From positions 1-52,922 of the forward strand of contig JAMCYM010000001.1 of the NCBI GenBank assembly GCA_023473665.1: a stretch of 52,922 nucleotides of DNA, read 5' to 3'. Below the pieces are notes generated by a model. It was not told the DNA's origin. It made no database searches and was given only the letters and a program-made list of their open reading frames with translations. The stretch is from Candidatus Marsarchaeota archaeon (GTDB lineage: Archaea > Micrarchaeota > Micrarchaeia > Micrarchaeales > Micrarchaeaceae). Positions within the stretch are counted from its first letter, which is position 1, and each line of letters starts with the position of its first letter. Shown here one piece after another: positions 39,759-48,675 of this stretch. Both the position numbers and the translations under genes were made by a program.

Positions 39759-40802
39759 CTATTGCTGTTTAGACGTTATCGGGGTTAAGATCCTCTTTAC
39801 GACCGATTCGAGATGTATGTAGACTACCGCAAGGATCGGCTGTATCATGGGGATTACTGCTGGAGCTAAAGCTGCTTCAGAGTTGAGTGCAAATATTGCA
39901 ATGGCAGCTGCAACACTCTGATTCTTTGTTACAGAGATAAACGCAACAGCCTGGTGTTTCTCGTATGTAATGCGCATTAGTCTGCTCACTATTATCGAAA
40001 GTGCCAGTACCCCAACTATTATTGCCGACTGGTAGCCTATGAGATAACCTACTAATTGTGGCGTAGAAATTATCAATGCCGCTTCCTTATCCACAAGCAC
40101 GAATATCAAGGCAAGCATGGATAGCATTGTAATCAATGACAGGTATTTCTTAGATCCATTTTCTACCACGGTCTCATTTTTCCACTTTATAAGCAGATAT
40201 CTGGTAATCTGCCCAACTATAAGAGGAAGTATGAGAATATACAGAATAGACAGCATTACGGGCCCCACAGGGATCGCTATCGACGTGTGGCTGCTGTAAA
40301 GCCCCAAAATTATTGGTATGGCAGGCACCGCAATGATAAGACTCATAATTGCAAGTGCGGTCGCCAGTTCTATGCTGCCACCCGCTATCAGCACATAACC
40401 AAGAGACGCACTCGACGCTGGCACTACGTTGGAAATAACAAAGCCGGCTCCGACAGATGAGCCAAGTGACGGGGCAATGACAAAAGCTGCAACAGGGGCG
40501 AGTACAAACACGTATACAAGTGAAGTAATAATCAGTTTCCACGACTTTAATTCTCTTACAAAACCTTCAGATTTCAATTGTATCATGGATGGGTATATGG
40601 TCATTATCGCGAAAAGGATGACTAGATTAGAGAAGAGCTGCGCATGAGAGCTTGCGAAACTTTTGGTATAATAACCCACAAATACGGCAATGAATACGGC
40701 CAGAAGCGTATACAGAATAAGATACTTCCTAACGTGCTTTGTCAACCTTGATGCCCAGTCACTTTTTTGCGCTTTTCCTCTAGCATTTACATGCTTAGCC
40801 AT
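39759..40802 (-). CDS. BASS-family arsenic resistance protein (ArsB/ACR3-like efflux)
   Basis: A 347-residue membrane protein with about ten spans of the bile acid:sodium symporter superfamily, in the branch annotated as arsenic resistance. Characteristic blocks are NVVPASSASLGYVLIAGGS in the middle and EKHQAVAFISVTKNQSVAAAIAIF near the C-terminus, the discontinuous helices of the fold. The ACR3 catalytic cysteine is not seen, so another organic or inorganic anion remains possible. The ATG at 40802 is eight bases after the end of the arsR gene, indicating a two-gene operon under ArsR control. Confidence 0.82.
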   Translation of the reverse strand: MAKHVNARGKAQKSDWASRLTKHVRKYLILYTLLAVFIAVFVGYYTKSFASSHAQLFSNLVILFAIMTIYPSMIQLKSEGFVRELKSWKLIITSLVYVFVLAPVAAFVIAPSLGSSVGAGFVISNVVPASSASLGYVLIAGGSIELATALAIMSLIIAVPAIPIILGLYSSHTSIAIPVGPVMLSILYILILPLIVGQITRYLLIKWKNETVVENGSKKYLSLITMLSMLALIFVLVDKEAALIISTPQLVGYLIGYQSAIIVGVLALSIIVSRLMRITYEKHQAVAFISVTKNQSVAAAIAIFALNSEAALAPAVIPMIQPILAVVYIHLESVVKRILTPITSKQQ

Positions 40803-40810
40803 CAATTCAC

Positions 40811-41086
40811 CTATAGTGATTGTCTGGGATTTGTGCCTCTGCCAAGTAAACGTCTCACACGACTGTTGCTTACCCAGTAGACAACCTCCTTCCCATCTTT
40901 CCTGTTAGAGAGGATCCCAGCCCTAACCAAATACTTCAATTGCAATGAGACAGTCGGTTGTGCCCGCTTGACAAGCTTAGGCAGTTCGCAGGCGCACTTT
41001 TCATGATTGGCAAGAATCGAAACTATTCTATATCTTGTCTTGTCACCTAGCGCCTTGAAAAGTATACGCCGTTTTTCATGGTCCAT
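40811..41086 (-). CDS. arsR: ArsR/SmtB family metalloid-responsive repressor
   Basis: A 91-residue winged-helix repressor. The start LFKALGDKTRYRIVSILA is typical; C31-A-C33-E-L in the alpha3 helix equals the C-V-C-E/D-L arsenite sensor of ArsR proteins, so binding of As(III) or Sb(III) is likely to release DNA. The recognition helix is QPTVSLQLKYLVRAGIL, followed by the wing RKDGKEVVYWV. ATG 41086 is used. It is divergent from the DsrE-like gene and upstream of the efflux gene. A perfect palindrome lies in the shared promoter. Confidence 0.93.
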   Translation of the reverse strand: MDHEKRRILFKALGDKTRYRIVSILANHEKCACELPKLVKRAQPTVSLQLKYLVRAGILSNRKDGKEVVYWVSNSRVRRLLGRGTNPRQSL

Positions 41087-41094
41087 AATAAATA

Positions 41095-41118
41095 ATATAT
41101 TTATAAACATAAATATAT
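41095..41118. promoter_or_regulatory. Palindromic operator between arsR and the DsrE-like gene
   Basis: ATATATTTAT (41095-41104) and ATAAATATAT (41109-41118) form a perfect 10-bp inverted repeat around AAAC. It also contains TATA-like sequences for both directions, so a bound ArsR dimer could repress both genes. Confidence 0.6.
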
Positions 41119-47344: not shown

Positions 47345-48385
47345 CTAGAGCGATTTCATAAGCCCCCACTCTATATCTTCCTTGGCATCGTCCGGTATCC
47401 CATTAAGCCATTCATATATGGGATCATCGAGTACCGATTGCTTTGCGATATCTACTGCTTTTTGTCTGATTTGCATGTCAGAGTTGCTTGCCCGTGTTTC
47501 CCTAGTGCTAAGCACATCTATAATGATTACAGGAGCTTCTGCCCTAACGCGTATGTAACCTTTATGTTGTAGATTTTCATTCTCGTACTGTTCTATTAGT
47601 TTTTTAGCCCTATCAAGTGCGGCTGTCAACTGGTCTTTGCTCGGTCTATACTCGTAACCATGAAAGTAGCTCTCAATATTGGCTGCTAGTCCCGAATCCT
47701 TGCTCCGCCTGCGCAGTCGTTCAAGGTCGGCAATGTACTTAGGAACCGTGTAGGTATCATCAAAAACGGAAAAACTTTCCGGTATGTTTGCAGCGTTATT
47801 CATATCGTATAGGGCCAGCACAGCAACCTTTCCAGCATTTGCCATTTTACCTTCCGACGGTCTCTTCCATTCCTCACGCACAAATACGCCGGTATATACG
47901 GAAATGAAACCTGCAGTCTCGCCAAGCCTTTTTTCTATGCGATTAGCGCGCAAATCCGCACTATTGACAAATAACCCCTCATATATTTCCTCTGCCATCG
48001 ACTCTGCATTAGATGCAGTGCAAATATCTCCTGCAGGGTGCAGGTGTATGAATGCTATTGCGTTGCTCCCTTCGCTACCTTTATTTTTTATTGTGCGCAG
48101 CTGTTCCAAAACATCTGTCTCTTCATACTTAATTGCCTCTGGCAACCTCGTAAGCCTCTCCTGCGGAACGTACTTTGTGAATTTCAGCATATCGTTTGAA
48201 TAGACCTTGCCGATCAAAAAGCCTGCAGTTTCATAATGACTATCCATATCGCGCTCAACACTGGCCAGTGCAGATTCAGCAATACGTACCTTTGCCGAGT
48301 CGTTTACCCTGTAAAAAAATTCAGTGTCACCTAAAATCTTTCTGTCGTATTCCGTCTTCTTTACGAGCTTTGATACGCTTTTCAT
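47345..48385 (-). CDS. JAMM/MPN-like metalloprotease-fold protein with unknown C-terminal region
   Basis: A 346-residue protein. Residues about 30-190 look like a JAB/MPN domain: E52 in YETAGFLIGKVY, then H114-L-H116-P-A-G-D at the zinc site, with S125 and E128 following. The H-x-H-P-x-G-D text recalls RadC-type JAMM proteins; the spacing is one residue longer than H-x-H-x7-S-x2-D and the last Asp is Glu. Residues 190-346 are mostly helical and charged (DLERLRRRSKDSG) and I recognise no domain there. No ubiquitin-like, E1-like or proteasome gene is near. It could be a deubiquitinase-like isopeptidase or an inactive scaffold. Confidence 0.65.
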   Translation of the reverse strand: MKSVSKLVKKTEYDRKILGDTEFFYRVNDSAKVRIAESALASVERDMDSHYETAGFLIGKVYSNDMLKFTKYVPQERLTRLPEAIKYEETDVLEQLRTIKNKGSEGSNAIAFIHLHPAGDICTASNAESMAEEIYEGLFVNSADLRANRIEKRLGETAGFISVYTGVFVREEWKRPSEGKMANAGKVAVLALYDMNNAANIPESFSVFDDTYTVPKYIADLERLRRRSKDSGLAANIESYFHGYEYRPSKDQLTAALDRAKKLIEQYENENLQHKGYIRVRAEAPVIIIDVLSTRETRASNSDMQIRQKAVDIAKQSVLDDPIYEWLNGIPDDAKEDIEWGLMKSL

Positions 48386-48477: not shown

Positions 48478-48675
48478 CTACTTCTTTACCTTTATCGAGA
48501 TTCCGCCTTCCCTCGAAGCGACGTAGTTGAGATGGTTGACGTAGCAGGTATAAGCATCTTTGTTGCCTCTCGCCATTTCCCTCTTGTATATCTTGCAGAG
48601 GTAACAATCGTGAACGCGTTTTTTAGGCTCTCCATTCTCATCGAAAATCTGCAGTATAACCTCGTTCTGTTTCAT
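48478..48675 (-). CDS. Small unknown protein with a C-x-x-C pair
   Basis: A 65-residue frame starting MKQNEVILQIFDENGEP. It has cysteines at C24 and C27 (CYLC) and C44, plus histidines H22 and H48, which could form one zinc site; the C-terminus is basic. I recognise no family. It is divergent from thrC, and its start lies close to a run of A/T that may serve both promoters. It is 92 bases upstream of the JAMM-like gene on the same strand, so co-transcription is possible. Confidence 0.6.
   Translation of the reverse strand: MKQNEVILQIFDENGEPKKRVHDCYLCKIYKREMARGNKDAYTCYVNHLNYVASREGGISIKVKK

Follow-up and report, generated by a model that had tools for sequence, protein, structure and literature searches.

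The 346-residue protein encoded at 47345..48385 (-) of the window, by which we mean the whole 52,922-nucleotide stretch of DNA analysed here, is probably a JAMM-like zinc metallopeptidase with an MPN fold and a site formed by Glu52, His114, His116 and Asp144. It belongs to a sparse and divergent family found in 12 of the 301 genomes of its class within the Micrarchaeota, and conservation across this family together with the predicted fold suggests that it most likely works like a JAMM enzyme. The most consistent interpretation is that of an orphan zinc peptidase which has no recognisable ubiquitin-like partner of its own. In such an enzyme a zinc ion bound by His114, His116 and Asp144 would hold a water molecule and Glu52 would activate that water. 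The peptide or isopeptide bond to be cut would belong to a protein tail lodged in the groove that flanks a predicted hairpin (residues 78–87), and the substrate would be selected by the loop next to the site (residues 118–143) together with the C-terminal region. The open reading frame, the family, its conservation and the predicted fold are shown here, while the binding of zinc, catalysis, the use of the groove, the part played by the loop and the class of substrate are inferences.

Family and distribution

A search of the 301 genomes gave 22 matches in 21 genomes at E values of up to 0.1. Twelve of these, including the window protein itself, were taken as the family and form the alignment A1 used below. 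The other ten (L013–L022) have E values of 0.007 or weaker and were left out: L013 and L016 appear by eye to be FtsZ-like and prenyl-synthase-like, respectively, the matches of L020 and L021 are interrupted by stops, and L014, L015, L017, L018, L019 and L022 match weakly or over only part of the protein. The family profile finds the same 12 genomes, spread over seven of 126 genera, in the class, and a phylum-wide search, which covers the same number of genomes, gave the same 12 matches; this recovery is partly circular because those genomes built the profile. The relatives share 18–27% sequence identity with the window protein. The 12 members are not independent, as L002 and L005 are 80% identical and L010 and L011 are 64% identical. 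The dN/dS values for two close pairs are 0.063 and 0.103, indicating purifying selection, but these values are rough because dS is about 2 and thus near saturation; a third pair was saturated. No relatives were found in plasmids, phages or viral contigs, and searches of PDB sequences with the single protein, of PHROGs and of PADLOC returned nothing.

Predicted structure

An AlphaFold2 model was built with the five-row alignment A3, which adds four relatives to the window protein. The model is modest overall (mean pLDDT 55.7, pTM 0.52), with most ten-residue blocks between residues 31 and 120 having pLDDT values of 69–89 and residues 119–147, Asp144 among them, falling below 50. As modelled, the protein is a member of the MPN-fold superfamily, having a β-sheet flanked by helices in a strand and helix order which we take to be that of an MPN domain. 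The domain spans residues 31–213 approximately (47747..48295 (-)), and most of the VIA-align matches listed cover this region. The original prediction had named the absence of an MPN fold as grounds for its refutation, and the fold is in fact predicted for the N-terminal 200 or so residues.

Comparison of the model with known structures using Foldseek gave BRISC, Rpn8–Rpn11, the COP9 signalosome and Caldiarchaeum Rpn11 as the four best PDB matches, with E values from 1.6e-6 to 2.5e-6. In VIA-align the best match is BubCD (Z score 12.8 over 150 residues, r.m.s. difference 3.3), followed by Z scores of 12.6 for a COP9 subunit and for BRCC36, 12.2 for Caldiarchaeum Rpn11 and 11.2 for P. furiosus JAMM1. 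The 50 VIA-align matches listed are presumably all MPN-domain proteins or complexes, judging in part by title. Structure comparison with a viral library gave six matches with E values reaching 0.001, the names of which include an MPN family, a JAB domain and a 26S proteasome subunit. Within the domain a predicted hairpin (78–81/84–87) precedes a helix at residues 89–102. In Rpn11 the ubiquitin tail is positioned by the Ins-1 segment (PMC6043591), and the hairpin may occupy the equivalent position here.

The C-terminal part (residues 204–346; 47348..47776 (-)) was described in the original prediction as matching nothing familiar. Its last 140 or so residues indeed have no match above threshold in Pfam, NCBIfam, PHROGs, PADLOC or PDB sequences. 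When modelled alone this part has a pLDDT of 47.7, and the model has no match in the PDB at an E value below 0.001; a model of this quality says nothing for or against a fold. Comparison of the C-terminal parts of family members using hhalign did not show them to be related (probability 0.1%, E value 0.63). Four members (L007, L010, L011 and L012) are only 229 residues long and end soon after the MPN domain.

Predicted metal site

The glutamate and the motif H114-L-H116-P-A-G-D on which the original prediction based its JAMM-like assignment are present in the open reading frame exactly where it placed them. The predicted catalytic residue Glu52 (48230..48232 (-)) and the predicted zinc ligands His114 and His116 of the segment His114-Leu115-His116 (48038..48046 (-)) are each invariant in all 12 members, which with the predicted MPN fold bears out that assignment; loss of the H-x-H pair among orthologues, which was to have counted against it, is not seen. 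Asp144 (47954..47956 (-)) is likewise invariant in 12 of 12 and is the predicted third zinc ligand, located at the N-terminus of a predicted helix (residues 143–157). The full set of invariant columns in A1 is M1, D46, E52, G59, F69, Y72, H114, H116 and D144.

The spacings between these residues are unequal in their conservation. Glu52 and His114 are separated by 58–62 residues across the 12 members and Asp144 and Gly159, before the next strand, by 15–17, while the distance from His116 to the aspartate varies from 17 to 52 residues and is 28 in the window protein. The variable segment, residues 118–143 (47957..48034 (-)), is an expanded loop which lies between HxHP and Asp144 and for the most part has pLDDT values below 50. 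When this loop was shuffled and realigned 150 times an invariant column arose in none of the 150 trials, compared with one, the aspartate, in the real data. Asp144 is not invariant in the smaller A3 alignment (five rows) because MAFFT gaps the loop differently there; its invariance rests on A1 (12 rows) and on the spacing. As the flanking spacings are near constant and only the HxH-to-Asp loop varies, the Glu/His/His/Asp site is probably intact but split by an expanded loop.

Canonical JAMM enzymes follow the pattern E-xn-H-x-H-x7-S-x2-D. The upstream glutamate, the H-x-H pair and the aspartate, as predicted ligand, are found in 12 of 12 members each, but neither the serine three residues before the aspartate nor the fixed short spacing is retained across the family. 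At this position (D-3) the members have serine (three), threonine (three), asparagine (three), glycine (two) and aspartate (one), in row order N, G, S, N, G, D, T, N, S, T, T and S. The proline after HxH is kept in nine members and missing in three.

The protein could instead be an inactive MPN scaffold or a metal-bound sensor in which fold and metal serve to bind a partner and no proteolysis takes place; Rpn8-like and Prp8-like MPN domains are examples. The absence of serine at D-3 in nine members and of the proline in three is in keeping with this, as are the spliceosome chains with a Prp8 domain and the CSN6 chain among the structural matches and the lack of a detectable ubiquitin-like pathway in the genome (see below). 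Against it, all four metal-site residues are invariant in 12 of 12, including a catalytic glutamate for which a scaffold would have no need. We regard a scaffold or sensor as unlikely, although it is the strongest competitor to a working peptidase.

Relationship to known JAMM families

As a single sequence the window protein matches Pfam Prok-JAB (PF14464) with an E value of 0.11 and 12.9 bits, below the cut-off of 25, and the NCBIfam desampylase NF041370 with an E value of 0.0052 and 16.7 bits, far below the cut-off of 130. Four of the 12 members match Prok-JAB at E values of up to 1, the best being 2.3e-5. Comparison with three canonical micrarchaeal JABs using hhalign gave an E value of 2e-4 and a probability of 46%, and places Asp144 in the region of their SxxD aspartate. 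Against PDB sequences the family profile matches CSN5 best (E value 0.078) and then BRCC36 (E value 0.18), both weakly. The likeness to RadC that was suggested originally does not extend beyond HxHP, and the Pfam scan at E values of up to 10 gave no RadC family, although its filters drop many weak matches. We do not classify the protein as a canonical JAMM or a desampylase because the serine, the spacing and the scores against the family cut-offs all depart from those groups.

The window protein shares the MPN fold with HvJAMM1, PfJAMM1 and Caldiarchaeum Rpn11 (Z scores of 11.2 to PDB entry 5ld9 and 12.2 to 6fnn), and has the glutamate, two histidines and aspartate in the same order as the archaeal desampylases and Caldiarchaeum Rpn11. 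It differs in that 17–52 residues separate HxH from the aspartate across the micrarchaeal family, compared with about 11 in those proteins, the serine is mostly replaced and there is an extra C-terminal region. The similarity to Prok-JAB, of which canonical micrarchaeal copies occur above the cut-off in three of the 85 genomes of the taxonomic family (G229, G227 and G222), is distant in sequence; the HxH-to-Asp spacing is 11 in one such JAB (L091), whereas in the window protein the loop is expanded.

Search for a ubiquitin-like pathway

JAMM enzymes are commonly interpreted as components of ubiquitin-like tagging. The genome that contains the window (779 kb in three contigs, 95.87% complete) has two proteasome genes, but no match over the cut-off to ThiF/E1, no match to ThiS and none to SAMP2 was found in it; the SAMP2 search is a weak test, its control having been found in only six of 14 genomes. 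The original prediction had noted that neither an E1 nor a ubiquitin-like modifier lies adjacent, which is correct, and the absence of detectable matches extends to the whole genome. A SAMP together with an E1 in one genome, the partner pathway expected of a desampylase, is not seen here.

Over the 85 genomes of the taxonomic family, ThiF exceeds the cut-off in one, which is not among the 11 that carry the JAMM-like gene, and ThiS in none. Weaker matches below the cut-off were found in 36 further genomes for ThiF and in 18 of the 85 for ThiS, and these probably represent unrelated nucleotide-binding or TGS-type domains. The sole E1-like gene over the cut-off is on contig 17 of G270 (L081, L094) with a JAB match close by; this genome lacks the JAMM-like family, and the pair may be a ubiquitin-like or defence cassette gained by lateral transfer.

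With no E1, ThiS/MoaD or SAMP2 detected in this genome, it is improbable that the enzyme acts on a ubiquitin-like conjugate produced through the known pathway in the organism's own cell. An unknown peptide conjugate, as originally suggested, is possible, and a ubiquitin-like protein of an unknown family is conceivable. BubCD, BRCC36 and CSN5, which are among the best structural matches, are parts of ubiquitin-like pathways or complexes; no such pathway or complex is seen with the window protein. A literature search found nothing joining Micrarchaeota with JAMM or ubiquitin-like proteins, and wider searches gave nothing relevant by title.

Gene neighbourhood

In the window the gene is followed downstream by a methyltransferase and preceded, in the same orientation and with 92 bp between them, by a gene for a 65-residue Cys/His protein (48478..48675 (-)), a putative zinc knuckle, as the original prediction had observed; beyond this is a PLP enzyme that resembles threonine synthase by eye. 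Elsewhere in the window (39759–41110 (-)) an SBF-family transporter adjoins an ArsR-type regulator, possibly as an arsenite efflux pair. Around the relatives, the only genes found repeatedly in the position next to the JAMM-like gene are those shared by close relatives, so that the conserved neighbours looked for were not found, and we rejected a conserved neighbourhood as the neighbours differ among genera. A few genes are shared by two or three loci at some distance from it, including those for the PLP enzyme, the small Cys protein and an HAD-like protein.

In two genomes of genus g24 a giant protein that appears to be secreted is encoded directly upstream of the JAMM-like gene (L035, 6184–11172 (-), 1,662 residues; L038, 1079–5812 (+), 1,577 residues), at a distance of 25–32 bp and on the same strand. 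The one that was scanned contains InlB-type repeats, and visual inspection suggests a class III-like signal sequence in both. A third g24 genome has an ankyrin-repeat protein in this position (L041, 5029–6240 (+)), and in G248 an IS605 OrfB/TnpB-type gene adjoins the JAMM-like gene (L037, 4115–5332 (+)).

More speculatively, the substrate could be in another cell. The protein might be delivered by a symbiont into an archaeal host, where it would act as a deSAMPylase on ubiquitin-like tags of host proteins, which would be compatible with an own genome without detected E1, ThiS or SAMP2 and with the position of the g24 genes behind InlB-repeat (two genomes) or ankyrin-repeat (one) proteins. Thermoplasmatales serve as hosts for the Micrarchaeota in culture (PMC5498576; PMC8975820), ThiS-family and E1-like genes are present in Thermoplasma (PMC2948915) and many putative deSAMPylases are encoded on Borg elements (PMC12660748). 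The last are also JAMM-like and host-associated, Borgs being archaeal replicons, but they are multicopy and predicted to bind host SAMP, whereas here there is one copy and no known partner (PMC12660748). Delivery is harder to reconcile with the lack of an obvious signal peptide by eye, the different neighbours in other genera and the absence of the gene from most genomes of the class (it is found in 12 of 301), and it presumes a host for this genome. We consider it rather improbable. The same doubt attaches to its boldest form, a Micrarchaeota-specific JAMM-like enzyme of ultra-small symbionts that lack a known ubiquitin-like pathway, its metal-binding aspartate displaced behind an expanded loop conferring specificity, which strips SAMP/Urm1-type tags from archaeal host proteins; this is drawn only from the symbiotic lifestyle of relatives (PMC5498576), the lack of a detected pathway and the precedent of the Borg elements (PMC12660748).

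That the JAMM-like gene and the gene for the small Cys protein make up a two-gene unit is very unlikely. In the window a gap of 92 bp separates these genes, which have the same orientation, and they lie within about 10 kb of each other in five of the six genomes holding both, but three of these five belong to one genus, and in G210 the two have opposite orientations and another gene separates them. The small protein has matches in 32 of the 301 genomes, the present one included, all from one taxonomic family, and 26 of the 32 lack the JAMM-like gene. It is found in six of the 11 genomes with that gene, and over the 85 genomes the co-occurrence is not significant (Fisher p = 0.18), for which reason we rejected a fixed unit. 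Its H-x-C-x2-C...H pattern is kept, by eye, in the 22 copies listed, none of which ends in GG (one ends in GGL), so the suggested link with the JAMM-like gene finds no support here either. In genus g11 it is often beside a protein that by eye is EF-Tu-like.

The least credible alternative is the compact shifted motif of the original prediction, in which Ser125, one residue later than canonical, and Glu128 complete the site: both are present with that literal spacing in the window sequence alone, but they fall inside the expanded loop, outside the invariant or near-invariant columns, and Glu128 was therefore rejected as the metal ligand in favour of Asp144.

Implications

With a JAMM-like peptidase as the preferred reading, a conserved JAMM-like family in genomes without a detected E1 or modifier provides a test case for JAMM targets outside ubiquitin-like tagging. 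The loop suggests that as many as about 50 residues can intervene between HxH and the JAMM aspartate, and searches using a fixed-spacing motif would overlook proteins of this sort. A substrate in a host cell would point to a new kind of interaction between an archaeal symbiont and its host and, if true, would represent a deconjugase that is encoded by a symbiont and acts between two archaeal cells.
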